This document shows positions 14,893 through 22,255 of a stretch of 52,776 bases of DNA, one piece after another. Origin of the DNA: Acidimicrobiales bacterium (GTDB lineage: Bacteria; Actinomycetota; Acidimicrobiia; Acidimicrobiales; RAAP-2); NCBI GenBank assembly GCA_025362585.1, contig JANYFR010000060.1:1-52776 (forward strand), in the 5' to 3' direction. Numbering within the stretch: the first letter of the stretch is position 1; each line of letters begins with the position of its first letter. Below the pieces are notes generated by a model. The model worked only from the letters and a program-made list of their open reading frames with translations. It was not told the origin of the DNA and made no database searches. Made by a program: the position numbers and the translations under genes.

Positions 14893-15678
14893 CTAGGGCA
14901 AGTCGTCGTCGTCAACGCGTTGCACCCAAGAGGCGGGACGCTTCTCCAAGAAGGCGGTCATTCCCTCCTTCGCCTGGTCGCTCGCGAAGAGGCGTGCCGA
15001 GAGCGCGGTCGTCCAGGCGAACGCCTCGTCGACCGACAGGCTGGGGACCCGGGTCGTCAGACTCTTGGCGGCCGCGATGGCCGCGGGCTCGCCGGCGAGC
15101 AGGTCGTTCACAATCAACGCCACCTCGCGATCTAGATCGTCGGGGGGAACCACGTCGTTGATGAGTCCCATGCGAGCGGCCTCGGTGGCGCTGAAGCGAT
15201 TACCCCGAAGGAAGGTGGACCGCGCGTCGGCGAGACTCATTTTGGGCAGACAGACCACCGAGATCATCGCTGGAGCCACGCCGACGCGCACCTCAGTGAA
15301 TCCGAACATCGCCGACTCGATCGCGACCGAGATGTCCATGACGGCGGCGAGGCCCACCCCCCCGGCCACGCAGTGCCCCGCGATGCGTCCGACGAACGGC
15401 TTGGGGGAGTTGAGAATCCGTTGAAAGACGTCAGCGATCTCGACCGCGCGACCTTCGCTCGACGTCGCGGACGTCCGTTCAGTGAGATTCGCTCCCGCGC
15501 TGAAGACGTGCCCTCGATTCGTCACGATGGCGACGCGGACACTCGGGTCGCCGTCGACCTCGTCGATGGCGACCATGAGTTCGGAGAGGAGTTGACGGCT
15601 CAGCGTGTTGCGACGCTCCTCATCAACCAGGGTGATCGTCATGACGCCCCCGGTGCGCGTGGTCTCAACGAGGTTCAT
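14893..15678 (-). CDS. Enoyl-CoA hydratase/isomerase, LiuC/AtuE-like
   Basis: Crotonase-fold enzyme of 261 residues, likely hydrating an alpha,beta-unsaturated acyl-CoA. It has the oxyanion-hole segments VFSAGANL and HCVAGGVGLAAVMD. The first of the two classical catalytic Glu positions is replaced (GGVGL rather than GGxEL), while the second region reads MFGFTEVRVGVAPAMIS. This EV-x-x-G-x-x-PA-x-IS form is typical of 3-methylglutaconyl-CoA and isohexenylglutaconyl-CoA hydratases (LiuC/AtuE). That fits a cluster containing a biotin-dependent acyl-CoA carboxylase. The start ATG 15678 follows AAGGAG and overlaps the upstream gene by 14 bases. It is the last gene of a five-gene minus-strand operon. 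The exact substrate is unknown. Confidence 0.88.
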   Translation of the reverse strand: MNLVETTRTGGVMTITLVDEERRNTLSRQLLSELMVAIDEVDGDPSVRVAIVTNRGHVFSAGANLTERTSATSSEGRAVEIADVFQRILNSPKPFVGRIAGHCVAGGVGLAAVMDISVAIESAMFGFTEVRVGVAPAMISVVCLPKMSLADARSTFLRGNRFSATEAARMGLINDVVPPDDLDREVALIVNDLLAGEPAAIAAAKSLTTRVPSLSVDEAFAWTTALSARLFASDQAKEGMTAFLEKRPASWVQRVDDDDLP

Positions 15679-16468
15679 CGAAGCTCCTTGGTCGCGGTCC
15701 CTCGGTCGGTCCGCCGGCGAAGGCCTGGGCCCGCAGCAGCCAATGACGCCCGAGGTCGCCCGTGACCAGTGACGTGTCGTCGAGGTGGCGTCGCTGGGTT
15801 GCCACGAGGCAGAAGTCCTGCGCGAGGCCCCGGACCGTGTCGTTGGCGTCGTTGGGTCCCCACGTCCATTGGTCGCCGGACGGGCCGGTGAGTTCAAGTC
15901 GTACGGCGCCCGCCGCGGGCTCCTCGCCGCGCACGCGGTACGACCACGCGCGCGTGAGATAGCCGAGTTGGGCGATGTGGCGCAGGCGCTCGGTTGGCGC
16001 GAGCGTCATCTCGAGAGCGTCGGCGACGTCGGTGCCGTGGGCCCACGTCTCCATGAGACGCGCGGTGAGAAACGACGTGGCCCCCATGGACGGTCCGTAC
16101 CACTCGACACGCGAGTCCTCGCGCAGCCTCTGGGCGACCTCGAACAGCGAGCGACGACCCCGTCGCCACTCGTCCATCAGTTCGTCGGGCGTCCGGGCGC
16201 GCGCGTCGCCCAGCGTGTACTGGTCGTAACCCGAGAGACGCGCCCCCCGCACGAGCTGGTCCACGCTGCTTCGGAAGGCCTCGGGATCGTTGATCGCGAC
16301 GCTTGCCGCTCGGTCGAAGTAGGCGAGGTGGCCGATCTGATCGGCCACGTCCCAACCGGCACTTGGCGTTGGCGTGTGCCAGCGGCCGTGGTCGGTGGCA
16401 CTGAGGAGTTTGTCGAGAGAGTCCTGTTCGGCGACGAGGTCGCCGCGCACCACGTCGAGCTCGCTCAC
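15665..16468 (-). CDS. TIGR03084-like DinB/maleylpyruvate-isomerase-fold protein, unknown function
   Basis: The 267-residue product has the actinobacterial DinB-like helical-bundle pattern: an N-terminal WHTPTPSAGWDVADQIGHLAYFD-type segment whose histidine would bind metal, then RLMETWAHGTDVADAL with a second conserved His, and a C-terminal sterol-carrier-like half containing RLELTGPSG. Relatives include mycothiol-dependent isomerases, so a thiol-dependent or metal-dependent step on the cluster substrate is possible but unproven. GTG 16468 overlaps the stop of the AtuA-like gene (GTGA), and its own 3' end overlaps the hydratase gene, so it belongs firmly to the operon. Confidence 0.8.
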   Translation of the reverse strand: MSELDVVRGDLVAEQDSLDKLLSATDHGRWHTPTPSAGWDVADQIGHLAYFDRAASVAINDPEAFRSSVDQLVRGARLSGYDQYTLGDARARTPDELMDEWRRGRRSLFEVAQRLREDSRVEWYGPSMGATSFLTARLMETWAHGTDVADALEMTLAPTERLRHIAQLGYLTRAWSYRVRGEEPAAGAVRLELTGPSGDQWTWGPNDANDTVRGLAQDFCLVATQRRHLDDTSLVTGDLGRHWLLRAQAFAGGPTEGPRPRSFDEPR

Positions 16469-18231
16469 TGGTCGCCCCGCAGCGCCACCGGCAGTTCGAC
16501 GACGCGACTCCGCAGCCATTCGCCGAGCCCTTTCGCCTGCGCGTCTTGTCGCGTGGAGGCGGCGACCCCCTCGTCAAGGAGGTCGTACACCACGAAATTG
16601 AGCGAGCGCAGGGCCGGGAGGCGGAACCGGTCGATCCGCAGCCCGGACGTCTCGGGTAAGAGTCGCCGGAACTCGTCGACGCTCAAGTAGTGATCGAGCC
16701 AGGCCCACGCGTCGTCGTCGCGGGCAAAGACCCCGAGGTTGGCGTTGCCGCCCTTGTCGCCCGAGCGAGTCCCGTACAGCTCGCCGAAGGGCATCGACGT
16801 GAGGGGACCGGTGGGGACCGTGACCCGAGGTCCTTGATCGCCCTCGATCGACACTGTTCCCGTGGGCGCTACCGAGGTGACCACGGTGCGGGCGCCACCG
16901 AGCACCGTGACGTACTGGGGCACGAGGTCGGCCGGTACCAGGGCGGGGCGGTAGACCCCGAAGGCCGAGCCGGCCGACGGGCCGGCGCCGAGGATGAAGA
17001 ATCCGGGCACCGTCGAGAGCGCGAGCTCGACCACCGCGTCGGCGACGGCGCGACCGACCTTGTGCTCATCGCGGTCCTTCAGCGTAAGCCGCCAGAGAGC
17101 GACGGCCTCTTCGTTGGTCCCCGGGTCCGGCTTGTCCGTGCGGATGAGGTGCATGGCGACACTGTCGAAGTCAACGGGATCGAACGGGCAGGCGACCCAG
17201 AAGGCCTTCTCGACGAGGCGGGCCTTGCTCTCGATGTCGAGACCGGTCAACGCGACGTTGAGGTCCTTTCGATAGCCCCCTATTTCGTTCATCGCCACCT
17301 TGAGGGTCCGCGGCGGCGGCTCACCCCTGGTGCCGCTGATGCGCACACGGTCCTTCGCAACCTGCTCCAGGTGAATCGTGTCGAATCGCGCGGTGACGTC
17401 CGGACCGAGGTACGACGGTGCACTGATCTCGTACAGCAGCTGGGAGGTGACGGTGCCGATGGAGACCTCGCCGCCACTGCCGTCGTGCTTACCAACGGTC
17501 GACGATCCGTCCTCGGCGACCTCCACCCACGGGAAGCCGACACGCTCCATGCCTTCGACCTCGGTGAAGAACGAGTAGTTGCCGCCAGTCGCCTGCGCGC
17601 CACACTCGATGACGTGGCCCGCGACGACGGCGCCGGCGAGGGCGTCCCAGTCGTCGCGGCGCCAGTGGTGGTGCCAGGCGGCCGGTCCGCAGACCACCGC
17701 CGCGTCGGTCACGCGTCCAGTGACGACGATGTCGGCCCCGCCGGACAACGCCTCGACAATCCCGAAGCACCCGAGGTAGGCGTTGGCGGTGACGAACCGC
17801 GACGTGTCACCGATCGGCTCGCCCGACTCGAAGTGGGCGAAGTCGACACCGGTGGCGCGGAGCTCTTCCAAACGTGGCAGGAGGTCGTCGCCATTCACCC
17901 AGGCGATGCGCGGCGACAGTCCGAGTTTCGCCGCCACCTGCGCGACGGCCTCGGCACAGTGTTCCGGGTCGAGCCCACCGGCGTTCGACACCACTTTGAT
18001 ACCCCGGTCGAGACAGGTGCCCATCACCTGGTCCATCTGGGCGACGAAGCTGCGGGCGTAGCCCGTCCCCGGACTCTTCATCCGCGTCCTCGCCAGGATG
18101 AGCATCGTGAGTTCGGCGAGCCAGTCGCCGGTCAAAACGTCGATCGGGCCACCTTCGACCATCTCGCGCGCGGCCGACAGCCGATCGCCGTAGAAACCGG
18201 AGCAGTTGGCGATGCGGATCGGGGCCCCCAT
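16465..18231 (-). CDS. AtuA-like (DUF1446) acyclic terpene utilisation family protein
   Basis: The 588-residue product begins with the family pattern IRIANCSGFYGDRLSAAREM, continues with VLTGDWLAELTMLILART, VSNAGGLDPEHCAEAVAQV, ADIVVTGRVTDAAVV and GGNYSFFTEVEGMERVGFPW. It ends with the small AtuA C-terminal domain (LYGTRSGDKGGNANLGVFAR). AtuA is needed for growth on citronellol/geraniol in pseudomonads but has no settled biochemical role. Here it sits between the biotin carboxylase and the TIGR03084-like gene. ATG 18231 shares a base with the upstream stop (TGATG); a GTG one codon earlier (18234) is also possible. The family name should not be read as proof of a terpene substrate. Confidence 0.9.
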   Translation of the reverse strand: MGAPIRIANCSGFYGDRLSAAREMVEGGPIDVLTGDWLAELTMLILARTRMKSPGTGYARSFVAQMDQVMGTCLDRGIKVVSNAGGLDPEHCAEAVAQVAAKLGLSPRIAWVNGDDLLPRLEELRATGVDFAHFESGEPIGDTSRFVTANAYLGCFGIVEALSGGADIVVTGRVTDAAVVCGPAAWHHHWRRDDWDALAGAVVAGHVIECGAQATGGNYSFFTEVEGMERVGFPWVEVAEDGSSTVGKHDGSGGEVSIGTVTSQLLYEISAPSYLGPDVTARFDTIHLEQVAKDRVRISGTRGEPPPRTLKVAMNEIGGYRKDLNVALTGLDIESKARLVEKAFWVACPFDPVDFDSVAMHLIRTDKPDPGTNEEAVALWRLTLKDRDEHKVGRAVADAVVELALSTVPGFFILGAGPSAGSAFGVYRPALVPADLVPQYVTVLGGARTVVTSVAPTGTVSIEGDQGPRVTVPTGPLTSMPFGELYGTRSGDKGGNANLGVFARDDDAWAWLDHYLSVDEFRRLLPETSGLRIDRFRLPALRSLNFVVYDLLDEGVAASTRQDAQAKGLGEWLRSRVVELPVALRGDQ

Positions 18232-20171
18232 CACGGTCCTTCAGTGACGACGTCGTCTTCGAGCGCCAGCAGCACGGTCCCGCTATCCACCTGTTGTCCC
18301 GTCACCACGAACAGTTCAGTCACCGTGCCCGAACGCGGAGCGCTGATCACGTGCTCCATCTTCATTGCCTCCATCACGACGAGGCTCTGGCCGATCTCGA
18401 CGGTATCGCCAACGCGCACCCCCACGTCGACGATGACCCCGGGCATCGGCGCGACGAGACCCCCGTGAACGGCGTCGACGCCGGGTACCACGAAGCGCGG
18501 AACAATCTCGAAGGTCGCCGTGCCGCGCGCGACCTGCACGTACAGCACGTCGCCGGCGCGCGTGACGCGCGATCGTGCGCGCCGTCCGTCGATTTCGACG
18601 TCGATGTCGAGGTCGCTCCAATCGTGCACGCGCGCGGTACCGTTGCCCACGTCGAAGAGACCATCGCGTCGCGCCCGGTAACGGACCTCGACCTCACGAT
18701 GGGCGAAGCGCAGCGTGACGCTCTGGCGAGGGAGCCGCGCGTTGCGCCAACCGCTCGGGACTGTTGACCAGACTCGGGCCGCCGCGCGATTGGCCCCCTG
18801 GAGCCAGAGAGCGGCCGCGGTGCTCGCCCAGCGGAGTTCGTCGTCGCTCAGTTCCAACGTTCGCGACGGCGCCGCGCGTTCAATGAAGTCGGTCGTGGTG
18901 TCGCCCGCGAGGAAGCGCTCGTGGCGAAGCGTCGCGACCAGGAAGTCACGGTTGGTGACGACGCCGCCCAGGTGCAGCCGTTCGAGGGCGAGGGCCAACT
19001 TGGTCGCCGCCTCGAGGCGCGTCGGGGCGACCGCGATCACTTTGGCGAGGAGTGGATCGAAGGCGACCGTGATGGTCGAGCCCCGCTCGATGCCCGACTC
19101 CCAGCGGACGTACGGTTCATCGGGCGGCTCGAAGGCGGCGACGGTCCCCGTCGCGGGCAAGAAGCCGTTGGCCGGGTCCTCCGCGCAAAGACGGACCTCG
19201 ATCGCCGCACCTTCAAACTCGACGTCGGTCTGGTCGTAGCCGAGGGGCTCGCCCGCGGCGATGCGCAACTGCTCGAGGACGAGGTCCACCCCGGTGACCT
19301 CCTCGGTGACGGGATGCTCGACCTGTAAGCGGGTGTTGACTTCGAGGAAGTAGAAGTGACGAGTCTCGTCGTCGACGAGGAACTCGACGGTGCCGGCCGA
19401 CTGGTAGCCAATGGCCCTGGCCAGTCCGAGGGCCGCCTCCCCGAGGGCGGCGCGCGTCGCCGCGTCGACGATCGGCGACGGCGACTCCTCGACCAGCTTC
19501 TGGTGGCGGCGCTGGATCGAGCATTCGCGCTCACCGAGGTGGACGAGGTTGCCGTAGTGGTCGCCGAGGATCTGCACCTCGACGTGGCGACTTCGCGCGA
19601 CGTAGCGCTCGAAGAAGACGCGGTCGTCTCCGAAGCTGGCGAGCGCCTCGCGACGTGCCGCGGCGACCGATTCGTCGAGTTGGCTTTCGTCGTGGACGAT
19701 CCGCATCCCCTTGCCGCCACCACCGGCGGCGGCCTTTACGAGGAGTGGGTAACCGAGCGCGATTGCGGCGGTGGCGTCTTCAAAAGAGGCGAGGACGGCG
19801 AGCCCGGCCTCGGTCGCGACACGCTTCGCGGCCACTTTGTCGCCCATCGCTTCCATGACGTCGGGAGACGGCCCGACCCAAGTCAGGCCCGCCGCCTGTA
19901 CCCGACGGGCGAATCCCGCGTTCTCCGAGAGGTAGCCGTAACCGGGATGAACGGCCTGCGCGCCACTACGCGCGGCGGCGTCGAGGAGGTCGTCCTGGTC
20001 GAGGTAGCCGCCGGTCAGTCGAACGGCCTCGTCGGCGTCGGCGACGAAGGGGGCCAGCGCGTCGCCGTCAACGTAGACGGCGACGCAGCGTAGACCCACC
20101 GACCGCGCGGCGCGGATGATCCGCCGGGCGATCTCGCCCCGATTGGCGATCAGCAGGGACGTGAAGGTCAC
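18231..20171 (-). CDS. Acyl-CoA carboxylase alpha subunit (biotin carboxylase plus biotin carrier)
   Basis: Carboxylates biotin with ATP and bicarbonate and carries it to the beta subunit. The 646-residue product has the biotin carboxylase half (SLLIANRGEIARRIIRAARS, VHPGYGYLSENAGFARRV, the ATP-grasp glycine loop KAAAGGGGKGMRIV, HLGERECSIQRRHQKLVEE, FLEVNTRLQVEHPVTE). A linker/BT region follows, then a C-terminal biotinyl domain with the target lysine in VVMEAMKMEH (K604). This BC-BT-BCCP order is that of methylcrotonyl-, geranyl- and propionyl-CoA carboxylase alpha chains. It overlaps the beta gene by four bases (GTGA) and the AtuA-like gene by one. The acyl substrate is set by the beta subunit. 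Confidence 0.95.
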   Translation of the reverse strand: MTFTSLLIANRGEIARRIIRAARSVGLRCVAVYVDGDALAPFVADADEAVRLTGGYLDQDDLLDAAARSGAQAVHPGYGYLSENAGFARRVQAAGLTWVGPSPDVMEAMGDKVAAKRVATEAGLAVLASFEDATAAIALGYPLLVKAAAGGGGKGMRIVHDESQLDESVAAARREALASFGDDRVFFERYVARSRHVEVQILGDHYGNLVHLGERECSIQRRHQKLVEESPSPIVDAATRAALGEAALGLARAIGYQSAGTVEFLVDDETRHFYFLEVNTRLQVEHPVTEEVTGVDLVLEQLRIAAGEPLGYDQTDVEFEGAAIEVRLCAEDPANGFLPATGTVAAFEPPDEPYVRWESGIERGSTITVAFDPLLAKVIAVAPTRLEAATKLALALERLHLGGVVTNRDFLVATLRHERFLAGDTTTDFIERAAPSRTLELSDDELRWASTAAALWLQGANRAAARVWSTVPSGWRNARLPRQSVTLRFAHREVEVRYRARRDGLFDVGNGTARVHDWSDLDIDVEIDGRRARSRVTRAGDVLYVQVARGTATFEIVPRFVVPGVDAVHGGLVAPMPGVIVDVGVRVGDTVEIGQSLVVMEAMKMEHVISAPRSGTVTELFVVTGQQVDSGTVLLALEDDVVTEGP

Positions 20172-21811
20172 AGCCGAAAGACCCCGTAACTGGTCGCTCC
20201 CTCGATGGGACGGCTGCGCACGACCGAGAGGCAGAGGCCGAGAACGGTACGGGTGTCGCGTGGGTCGATGATGCCGTCGTCACTGACGGCGCCGGTCGCG
20301 GCGAGGGCGAGTGAGCTCTTCTCCTGGGACGCTTCGACTGCGGCAACGATGGCGCGGTCCTCCTCTTCGTCAAAGGCCAGGCCCTTGCGTTCGGCCTGGC
20401 CCCGGCGCACTTGGCTCATCACCCCCGCGATCTGCTTGGGCCCCATAACGGCGATCTTCGCGGTCGGCCACAGGAAAGTGAACCGGTTGCCGAAGGCGCG
20501 GCCCGACATTCCGTAGGTGCCGGCGCCGTAGGAGGATCCGACAATGAGCGTCAGGTGGGGCACCGTCGAGTTGGTGACGGCGTTCAGCATCTGTGATCCC
20601 TTCTTGATGATGCCCTCGGCCTCGGCGTCCTTACCGACCATGTAGCCGGTGATGTTCTGAATGAAGACGAGCGGTACGTCGATCTGGTTGCAGAGCTGGA
20701 TGAACTGGCCGGCCTTCTCCGCGGCCCGCGGGTGGATGACGCCATTGTTGCCCAGTATCCCGATCGGGTAGCCGTGGACGCTGGCCCAGCCACAGACGAT
20801 GGTGCTGCCGTAGCGGGCCTTGAACTCTTCGAAGCGCGAACCGTCGACGACCCGGGCAATGATGTCGCGCACGTCAACGCTCTGGCGCAGGTCGTGACTC
20901 ACGATTCCTAGTAGGTCCTCGGCGTCGTACGCCGGCTCCTCGACCTCACTGGACGGCGCCGGGCCGTGCTTGCGCCAGTTGAGGTGCGAGACAACCTCGC
21001 GGCACAGACGGATGGCGTCCATCTCGTCCTCGGCAAAATAGTCGCCGAGTCCGGAGACCTCCGCGTGCAGCCGGGCGCCGCCGAGCGTTTCATCGTCGGA
21101 CTCCTCGCCGGTCGCCATCTTTACGAGGGGGGGACCGGCGAGGAAGATCTTCGACTGGTCCTTGACGACAATGTTGTAGTCCGAAAGTCCCGGTTGGTAG
21201 GCGCCGCCAGCAGTGGAGGAGCCAAAGACCACGCAGACGGTGGGGACGCGCATCTTGGACAGTTCGATGAGGTCGTAGAAGAAGCGCCCGCTTTCGGCGA
21301 AGTGGCCCGTGTGCATGCGCCCACCGCCGCTGCCACCAGCGCCGACGCGCAGGTCCGCTCCGGCCGACTCGACGAAACTGACGTAGGGGATCTGATTGTC
21401 GCGGGCGATTTCGAGTGCGCGAGCCCACTTCTTGGCCGAGTAGGCGGTGAGCGCGCCGCCCAGCACCGTGGGATCGTTGCCCATAATGACGCATTCGGTG
21501 CCGGCGATGACGCCAATCCCGACGACCATGCCGCCCCCCATGGCGTAGTCCGAGTCGTAGCCGGCGAGCGCCGAAATCTCCAGGAACGCGCAGTCCGGGT
21601 CGAGGGCCATCGCGATGCGCTCGCGAATCGGCATCTTGCCCCTCGAACGCAGTCGCTCGGTGGCCGTGGCACCCCCGCCGGCGTTCGCTTCGTCGAGCAG
21701 TCCGTCGATCACGCTCAGCTGCTCAATCATGTCCGCCCGGTTCAGCGCGAATGTCTCGGAGCTCGTGTCGAGGGTCGAGGAGAGGGGTGGTGCCAGCAAT
21801 CCTTGCTTCAT
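20168..21811 (-). CDS. Acyl-CoA carboxylase beta subunit (carboxyltransferase), MCC/GCC-like
   Basis: Transfers the carboxyl group from biotin to an acyl-CoA. The 547-residue carboxyltransferase has both halves: N-terminal RGKMPIRERIAMALDPD, FVESAGADLRVGAGGSGGGR, VCVVFGSSTAGGAYQPGLSD and IFLAGPPLVKMATGEE; C-terminal GNNGVIHPRAAEKAGQFIQL, FIQNITGYMVGKDAE and SYGAGTYGMSGRAFGNRF. The motif set matches methylcrotonyl/geranyl-CoA carboxylase beta chains better than acetyl- or propionyl-CoA types. It leads the operon. The neighbouring hydratase and AtuA-like genes point to a gamma-carboxylation of a 3-methyl-2-enoyl-CoA; this is inferred. Confidence 0.93.
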   Translation of the reverse strand: MKQGLLAPPLSSTLDTSSETFALNRADMIEQLSVIDGLLDEANAGGGATATERLRSRGKMPIRERIAMALDPDCAFLEISALAGYDSDYAMGGGMVVGIGVIAGTECVIMGNDPTVLGGALTAYSAKKWARALEIARDNQIPYVSFVESAGADLRVGAGGSGGGRMHTGHFAESGRFFYDLIELSKMRVPTVCVVFGSSTAGGAYQPGLSDYNIVVKDQSKIFLAGPPLVKMATGEESDDETLGGARLHAEVSGLGDYFAEDEMDAIRLCREVVSHLNWRKHGPAPSSEVEEPAYDAEDLLGIVSHDLRQSVDVRDIIARVVDGSRFEEFKARYGSTIVCGWASVHGYPIGILGNNGVIHPRAAEKAGQFIQLCNQIDVPLVFIQNITGYMVGKDAEAEGIIKKGSQMLNAVTNSTVPHLTLIVGSSYGAGTYGMSGRAFGNRFTFLWPTAKIAVMGPKQIAGVMSQVRRGQAERKGLAFDEEEDRAIVAAVEASQEKSSLALAATGAVSDDGIIDPRDTRTVLGLCLSVVRSRPIEGATSYGVFRL

Positions 21812-22113
21812 GGCCTGATACTAGTTACGGCGCTGAACTGGGAATTTAACCTGGGCGGTCGGGCCAGTTCGAGCTGTCGCACCGCGGGGGCCGCTCGATG
21901 GGACGACGCTGGTGAGCGGCGGGAGGTTACGATTGGCCCGCCCTTCGGCGCGAACGCGGCGTCGTCGACTTTCACGATCGTGATCGCTCGAATGAAGAGG
22001 TTCTCGATCGTGCAGTAGTCCGGGGCACGCCCACGAAGATACTTTCCGTTGGCGCCGCGTGCACTGGTCCCAGTGGACGGCGCACCGTTGGCCGTGGTGA
22101 CCGGCACCGTTAA

Positions 22114-22151
22114 CCACGTGACCGACGCCTTTGGTGGCGTCGGTCACGTGG
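22114..22151. repeat. Perfect 16-bp inverted repeat with 6-base loop
   Basis: Arms CCACGTGACCGACGCC (22114-22129) and its exact complement (22136-22151) flank the loop TTTGGT. No U-run follows on either strand. It could be a bidirectional terminator-like hairpin, an operator, or a relic of a former gene end. It lies about 100 bases before rpiB and 300 before the carboxylase operon, an odd place for a terminator. Confidence 0.75.
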
Positions 22152-22200
22152 AGCGTGCACGAACGAGATGGTGACGTCGTGCGCGGTGACACGTCGGGGG

Positions 22201-22226
22201 AAGCCTCGGTTCAGCCACCAAGGCTT
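22201..22226. repeat. Imperfect 10-bp inverted repeat upstream of rpiB
   Basis: AAGCCTCGGT (22201-22210) and ACCAAGGCTT (22217-22226) pair with one mismatch around a 6-base loop. It lies 30 bases before the rpiB start, so in the mRNA or promoter region it could act as an operator or leader hairpin. Confidence 0.5.
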
Positions 22227-22255
22227 CTTGATAGTGGACGGGTAGGGTTGTGACG

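Follow-up and report, generated by a model that had tools for sequence, protein, structure and literature searches.

Which enzyme completes the removal of a methyl branch when a bacterium carries a probable carboxylase and hydratase for it in one gene block with no 3-hydroxy-3-methylglutaryl-CoA (HMG-CoA) lyase beside them? The question is raised by a 52,776-nucleotide stretch of an Acidimicrobiales genome (contig JANYFR010000060.1 of assembly GCA_025362585.1), hereafter the window, in which five minus-strand genes, among them atuA, form a compact block. AtuA is named for a pathway but has no agreed reaction, and passages of the literature split the lyase step between AtuA (PMC4847356) and LiuE (PMC4097962). 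We hypothesize, with a probability of roughly 0.55, that the block serves to strip a 3-methyl-2-enoyl-CoA, larger than 3-methylcrotonyl-CoA and derived from a terpenoid or isoprenoid acid, of its methyl branch, with AtuA as the lyase. The features are as follows:

20168..21811, minus strand: AccD, 547 residues, GCC-type (geranyl-CoA carboxylase-type) carboxyltransferase beta subunit; small gatekeeper Ser174; lacks the three-residue insertion of 3-methylcrotonyl-CoA carboxylase (MCC); extra Gly-rich loop just before the insertion place
18231..20171, minus strand: AccA, 646 residues, biotin carboxylase / BT domain / biotin carrier alpha subunit; AMKM biotin site
16465..18234, minus strand: AtuA, PF07287 domain (predicted citramalate-lyase-A fold) with fused C-terminal PF23544 domain; proposed C-C lyase
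15665..16519, minus strand: TIGR03084 protein, predicted DinB/mycothiol-maleylpyruvate-isomerase fold; invariant His64/Glu157/His161; accessory thiol-dependent step proposed
14893..15678, minus strand: ECH, 261 residues, crotonase-family hydratase; Glu129 kept in 22 of 23 aligned rows
21812..22249, no strand: intergenic stretch between the divergent AccD and rpiB genes; presumed operon promoter region

The original prediction of five minus-strand genes overlapping end to end was confirmed by the open reading frames, whose successive overlaps are 4, 4, 55 and 14 bp, and by the Pfam and NCBIfam assignments. AccD matches Carboxyl_trans at 419 bits; AccA contains the biotin carboxylase domains, BT_MCC_alpha and Biotin_lipoyl, with the AMKM motif at residue 602; AtuA matches its namesake domain at 526.6 bits (cut-off 22.8) and AtuA_ferredoxin (PF23544) at 61 bits (cut-off 27); the TIGR03084 gene scores 295.2 bits against a cut-off of 247.95, and ECH matches ECH_1 at 169 bits. 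The listed ECH reading frame extends to a TTG at 15897, and aligned relatives start at the ATG at 15678.

In the proposed series, AccD and AccA would carboxylate the branch methyl group, like GCC, and the crotonase would hydrate the 3-alkylglutaconyl-CoA to a tertiary 3-hydroxy-3-alkylglutaryl-CoA. AtuA would then release the carboxymethyl arm as acetate (or acetyl-CoA); the remaining unbranched 3-oxoacyl-CoA could enter beta-oxidation, and HMG-CoA lyase would be unnecessary. The TIGR03084 protein would be a metal- and thiol-dependent helper, with E/Z isomerisation as a suggested task. The block had been read as a branched 3-methyl-2-enoyl-CoA route of the Liu/Atu type, and the MCC/GCC-side carboxylase and the conservation of the five genes together support this. 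It had also been suggested to be a pared-down or new route, with the lyase absent; that absence holds for HMG-CoA lyase only, since AtuA has the predicted fold of citramalate lyase subunit A.

The predicted fold and domain structure of AtuA

A structural model of AtuA, built on a 62-row alignment drawn from the 63 rows (window included) left after thinning, was predicted with high scores (predicted local distance difference test, pLDDT, 92.3; predicted template-modelling score, pTM, 0.91). Foldseek returned a single match at E ≤ 0.001, the entry 9evf ('Citramalate lyase - ADP - pyruvate complex'; E 7e-21), and in VIA the model superposed on 9evf with a Z score of 32.3 and a root mean square deviation of 3.5 over 406 residues at 17% identity; the next row reached Z 7.9, and a family not listed in these look-ups is not thereby excluded. 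A profile search of the PDB sequences found 9erq at E 6.7e-5 (next 0.62), the same protein as 9evf, under the title 'Acyclic terpene utilization AtuA family protein / Citramalate lyase, subunit A'. Profile and model were both needed because a plain phmmer search of AtuA against the PDB gave nothing under E 0.1. Over two aligned stretches, 9erq is identical to AtuA at 24 of 48 AtuA-conserved columns (at least 95%) as against 23 of 118 others (p 1e-4), and the shared residues, numbered from the ATG at 18231, include Ala84-Gly85-Gly86, Pro89, Asp115, Arg173, Asp176, Leu266-Tyr267-Glu268, Lys311, Gly319 and Arg321. On the strength of the model, we assign the AtuA main domain to the fold of citramalate lyase subunit A.

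According to PMC4682846, citramalate, which is a tertiary hydroxy acid, is broken down by citramalate lyase to acetate and pyruvate. We propose that AtuA is probably the cassette's 'missing' lyase because its predicted fold matches that of citramalate lyase subunit A, whose chemistry is the kind that the cassette needs after hydration. Acetate release that leaves a 3-oxoacyl-CoA, as proposed here, corresponds to EC 4.1.3.26, which a passage of PMC4847356 assigns to AtuA in Thauera, and the modelled fold favours AtuA over LiuE for this activity. The ADP in the title of 9evf hints at ATP use, as in ATP-citrate lyase, which uses ATP; it might instead mimic part of CoA. More tentatively, and in our view doubtfully, AtuA could belong to the citramalate-lyase superfamily as a 3-hydroxy-3-(carboxymethyl)acyl-CoA lyase that uses a nucleotide, within a methyl-branch-excision cassette that is complete without HMG-CoA lyase and keeps the CoA on the long chain, the TIGR03084 protein supplying the cis enoyl-CoA by maleylpyruvate-isomerase-like thiol chemistry.

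The second domain of AtuA can be followed among its relatives. The window protein has 588-589 residues, and its fused C-terminal domain contains an invariant RSGDKG stretch. At one locus (L151) a short AtuA is followed by a separate PF23544 gene, and at two others (L153, L155) the first AtuA frame stops and the likeness to the second domain goes on in another frame; the window AtuA looks like a fusion of such a pair. A small DUF4387 gene comes after the gene for a closer 9erq relative in the class (L152; E 1e-75). In a family search PF23544 and DUF4387 each matched only its own family; they may be the same kind of subunit. Beside the CmlA-like and DUF4387 genes of L152 (5405-8970) stand TRAP-type transporter-like genes, recognised by eye, and the locus is possibly a true citramalate-type lyase locus in Acidimicrobiia. 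In another record (L017, 7816-9560) AtuA lies in two overlapping pieces, through a frameshift or a sequencing error in that record.

In the openly licensed PubMed Central literature we found no paper on the 9erq/9evf structure, although one may exist, nor, judging by titles, any citramalate lyase paper since 2020 on an AtuA-type enzyme. The main value of the fold match is that it gives AtuA a specific, testable reaction. If AtuA were assigned as a lyase, gene finders could spot the degradation of isoprenoid acids wherever the cassette occurs, as it does in many genomes of Acidimicrobiia and of the Rhodococcus type.

The carboxylase pocket and the TIGR03084 protein

According to Jurado et al. 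(PMC4673880), Phe191 and a three-residue insertion close the MCC pocket and Gly162 opens that of GCC; swapping this residue largely swaps the preference and decides the use of geranyl-CoA. In the window AccD the gatekeeper place holds Ser174. Among AccD sequences of the same, 'close' type the place is Ser or Thr in 29 of 29 rows (window included, two rows identical), and among those of other types in Acidimicrobiia it is Gly or Ala in 14 of 14; the window thus has Ser rather than the Gly of GCC. The MCC insertion is absent from all 43 Acidimicrobiia and Myxococcota rows, the window's among them, and present in four MCC-side references, including 9tps (471 bits; named propionyl-CoA carboxylase in the PDB) and Mycobacterium AccD1, 4q0g (431 bits; named acetyl-/propionyl-CoA carboxylase), both counted with MCC on account of the insertion. 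The 29 close-type rows share the GCC motif GSSTAGGAYQPG, which is not in the other-type rows or in MCC, and a variable-length Gly-rich loop just before the insertion place is special to them. In a phylogenetic tree the cassette AccD sequences group with PaGCC, the one GCC reference and a long-branched one, apart from MCC (97/81). Given Ser174 and the missing insertion, a substrate larger than methylcrotonyl-CoA is likely.

The original description of an MCC/GCC-like beta subunit thus needs narrowing: the carboxylase does lie on the MCC/GCC side, with a pocket that is GCC-like and not MCC-like. We rejected an MCC identity, despite the best bit score, on the pocket residue and the missing insertion, and a usual propionyl-CoA carboxylase identity on scores (best 230 bits, versus 499 for MCC). 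Both scores and tree place the beta subunit off the usual propionyl/acetyl type; membership of that type would have spoken against the predicted route.

The predicted model of the TIGR03084 protein (pLDDT 91.2) finds the mycothiol-dependent maleylpyruvate isomerase (2nsf/2nsg) as its best Foldseek match (E 2e-7); in VIA the pair reaches Z 17.5 over 221 residues and the next other protein 14.8, in a class of helical bundles that readily score high Z. His64, Glu157 and His161 are invariant in all 40 aligned rows and resemble the His/Glu/His set with which the isomerase binds zinc. The host has an MshC-like gene (413 bits, under the cut-off of 485) that is likely a mycothiol gene, and a TIGR03084 gene also lies near the cassette in two Myxococcota records. 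The protein probably acts as a helper that depends on a metal and a thiol. Passages of PMC4673880 and PMC4097962 report the cis isomer as the substrate of GCC. Because the fold is akin to that of a cis-trans isomerase and GCC takes a cis substrate, E/Z isomerisation suggests itself, as a guess by analogy. The TIGR03084 alignment covers all 40 available sequences, that of the hydratase 23 of 32. Many under-cut-off TIGR03084 relatives in the class survey, from different families, have one in-frame stop (TGA/TAG) inside the match, possibly an alignment end effect.

Recurrence of the block and other candidate lyases

Is the block a chance arrangement? A locus scan by peptide patterns, covering one genome per species with AtuA among close relatives only, yielded 19 named loci: 17 come from actinobacterial records, most of them named at the level of Acidimicrobiia or lower, and the other two from Deltaproteobacteria/Myxococcales. 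All five genes were found at the 19 loci as far as each contig extends. At the two Deltaproteobacteria/Myxococcales loci the hydratase and TIGR03084 genes have the opposite orientation and acyl-CoA dehydrogenases lie nearby. In the tree, the AccD sequences of two Myxococcota records (L005, L006) nest inside the Acidimicrobiia-type clade, a placement that suggests horizontal transfer of the cassette.

Of 247 genomes sampled from the class, 116 have AtuA and 80 have TIGR03084 above its cut-off. Counting long AtuA forms only (rows under 489 bits were set apart as short forms or fragments, of which 35 were counted and weaker rows dropped), long AtuA lies within 6 kb of 44 of 102 AccD copies, and 44 of 76 long AtuA have AccD there; a TIGR03084 gene stands within 10 kb of 30 of these 44 pairs. 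Among the TIGR03084 copies listed, 82 were over the cut-off and 68 under it; for 38 of the 82 a long AtuA or an AccD lies no more than 10 kb away, and more than half are elsewhere. At the genome level, long AtuA and TIGR03084 co-occur (both in 54 of the 247, AtuA only in 19, TIGR03084 only in 26, neither in 148), in counts uncorrected for the relatedness of the genomes.

Forty class regions were fetched and their genes counted by eye; 39 had been picked for adjoining AccD and AtuA and are uninformative on how frequent that pairing is. All five genes are present in 12 of the 13 regions with a close-type AccD, and the thirteenth (L108) lacks AtuA and TIGR03084. Acyl-CoA-dehydrogenase-like matches occur around the cluster in 21 of the 40. 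A nitronate-monooxygenase-like gene is present in seven (e.g. L101 15065-16189, L122 6191-7321), and a weak TetR-like protein, under the Pfam cut-off, lies near AtuA in ten (e.g. L015 9826-10524) and has no match in the window.

The window's genus, with 12 genomes in the sample, allows a finer comparison. Close-type AccD, the TIGR03084 gene and cassette-type AtuA are confined to the same five genomes (G000, G063, G067, G141, G208). G099 carries neither close-type AccD nor TIGR03084, and its AtuA is a different one (53% identical); G130 has an AccD of another type (44% identical). In the window, G141, G208 and G067 the block sits between prmC and rpiB; eight genomes have this site without it (G055, G102, G126, G130, G165, G235, G099, G063), of which G063 has the block at another site and G235 ends its contig inside prmC. 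At the G055 site tsaC was seen by eye. Within the genus the block is either there as a whole or missing as a whole. At the cassette site of one cassette-less genus-mate (L166, 3802-5295) stands a divergent-thiolase-like gene, recognised by eye, with Pfam TLP1_add_C just under its cut-off; five other genus-mates have a gap of similar size there.

The five-gene set recurs more than by chance. The prediction that the five genes are conserved together is borne out by the 19 named loci, the close-type regions and the genus-level pattern; the notion that the set is unusual is not supported, as the pairing of AtuA with an adjacent GCC-type carboxylase, in many cases joined by TIGR03084, is common among Acidimicrobiia and is found also in other Actinomycetota and, without TIGR03084, in Achromobacter. 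By annotation, plasmids of Rhodococcus, Mycolicibacterium and Tsukamurella carry related gene sets with acyl-CoA dehydrogenases, TetR regulators and mostly acyl-CoA ligases; a Dietzia plasmid lacks TIGR03084 in the stretch seen, and Achromobacter pA82 has carboxylase, dehydrogenase, hydratase and AtuA without TIGR03084. The module is thus a general one, with a substrate that may vary between hosts.

In the window the direct neighbours of the block are tsaC and rpiB, with rho, prfA, prmC and glyA farther off (named by eye), and a promoter scan of 21812..22249 returned no sigma-70-like match. The genome has 14 acyl-CoA dehydrogenase-domain matches, 13 of which exceed the cut-off; one lies in the window itself, near 46 kb. 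These enzymes could be the source of enoyl-CoA for the cassette.

Several observations weigh against AtuA as the lyase of a GCC-type route. A fold likeness at 17% identity is no proof of reaction, and the substrate of citramalate lyase is a free acid, that expected for the cassette a CoA ester. Against the solved structures AccD scores MCC first (498.6 bits) and GCC at 458.5, and the GCC side of the tree is a single, long-branched reference. The crotonase falls under the cut-off of all 25 NCBIfam models listed of 71 matched (PRK05674 145 bits of 426; best, PRK07827, 224 of 283); the predicted LiuC/AtuE-type hydratase therefore stands as a member of the crotonase superfamily, with 'LiuC/AtuE-type' a likeness and not an assignment. 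TIGR03084 is missing from 12 of the 39 AtuA-holding fetched regions. There remains the matter of HMG-CoA lyase: passages of a review name LiuE, an HMG-CoA lyase reported to act on the isohexenyl compound, as the EC 4.1.3.26 enzyme of Pseudomonas (PMC4097962); counting as absence no PRK05692 match of at least 150 bits, HMG-CoA lyase is commoner in genomes with the AccD-AtuA arrangement (27 of 44) than in those without it (74 of 203; p 0.004); and a divergent HMG-CoA-lyase-like gene (163 bits against a cut-off of 246) is present in the genome from which the window comes.

These last points speak for a classical Atu/Liu logic in which the cassette carboxylates and hydrates, a distant HMG-CoA-lyase-type enzyme cleaves, and AtuA is otherwise employed, in CoA-ester handling or in a chaperone-like role. 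We consider this unlikely. Seventeen of the 44 genomes, all listed at 95% completeness or more, have no HMG-CoA lyase match, which an AtuA lyase could explain, and in none of the other 27 does the gene lie closer than 130 kb on the same contig; none was found in the window, in the 40 fetched regions (tblastn with one divergent query) or among the annotations, drawn from incomplete gene tables, of seven plasmid regions. AtuA, for its part, has a predicted lyase fold and stays with the carboxylase. A simple genome-by-genome replacement of HMG-CoA lyase by AtuA finds no support, the two being positively associated. The divergent gene of the window's genome is one of two HMGL-like matches there; it lies on contig C16, and the strong match, on C53, scores nothing as HMG-CoA lyase. 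On C16 (L026, 165-3486) it stands with an IclR-like regulator, recognised by eye, and an adjoining family III CoA-transferase, perhaps as a separate hydroxy-dicarboxylate route; the genus-mates G067 (166 bits) and G208 (161 bits) have a similar match.

Could the cassette instead be the organism's leucine/isovalerate route, with AccD/AccA as MCC, ECH as methylglutaconyl-CoA hydratase and AtuA acting as HMG-CoA lyase? The reaction series would be the same, MCC is the top-scoring solved relative of AccD, and the genome yielded no second MCC/GCC-like carboxyltransferase: of its three carboxyltransferase reading frames, the one on C25 is far outside the MCC/GCC rows and the one on C59 scores only 48 and 28 bits. 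With the HMGL-like matches also examined, no intact Liu cluster was found elsewhere in the genome, a check that the original prediction had called for. The small gatekeeper, the absent insertion and the position of AccD off the MCC branch nonetheless make this reading improbable, and, according to PMC4673880, the F191G variant of MCC has essentially no activity on methylcrotonyl-CoA and wild-type GCC has very little. Quite improbable, too, is another pathway, biosynthetic or for the degradation of cyclic or sterol-like acids, whose goal would be the carboxylated product itself: plasmid relatives do lie near genes annotated as SCP2, ketosteroid-isomerase-related, P450 and MaoC, but the recurrent acyl-CoA dehydrogenases, acyl-CoA ligases and TetR regulators look catabolic. 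We therefore retain methyl-branch removal with AtuA as lyase as the preferred hypothesis.

Comparison with known systems

The cassette is a real and common Atu-like module for carboxylation, hydration and, as we propose, cleavage, and it is little described in the openly licensed literature; a search of PubMed Central in that scope found no papers on TIGR03084 or PF07287, and a paper on the cassette may exist. Its nearest known counterpart is the Pseudomonas Atu pathway (atuABCDEFGH; gene list from passages of PMC4847356 and PMC4097962), which likewise brings together a GCC-type beta subunit with its alpha subunit, a crotonase-family hydratase and AtuA. The cassette differs in having no counterparts of atuB, atuD, atuG and atuH among its five genes, in the added TIGR03084 gene, in its Actinomycetota host and in a crotonase that falls below the AtuE-type equivalog cut-off. 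With the Liu pathway (liuRABCDE) it shares a carboxylase and then a hydratase acting on a 3-methyl-2-enoyl-CoA; however, its pocket is not MCC-like, the cluster contains neither HMG-CoA lyase nor dehydrogenase, and AtuA and the TIGR03084 protein are present.

Two single proteins complete the comparison. Citramalate lyase subunit A, CmlA (9erq, 9evf), shares with AtuA the predicted main-domain fold, part of the conserved residues and a two-part design of an A part with a small second domain or protein. The two are only 17% identical, AtuA carries a fused PF23544 domain where the CmlA-like gene of L152 is followed by DUF4387, and a different substrate is expected. The mycothiol-dependent maleylpyruvate isomerase (2nsf/2nsg) resembles the TIGR03084 protein in predicted fold and in the conserved His/Glu/His set, at only 13-17% identity.

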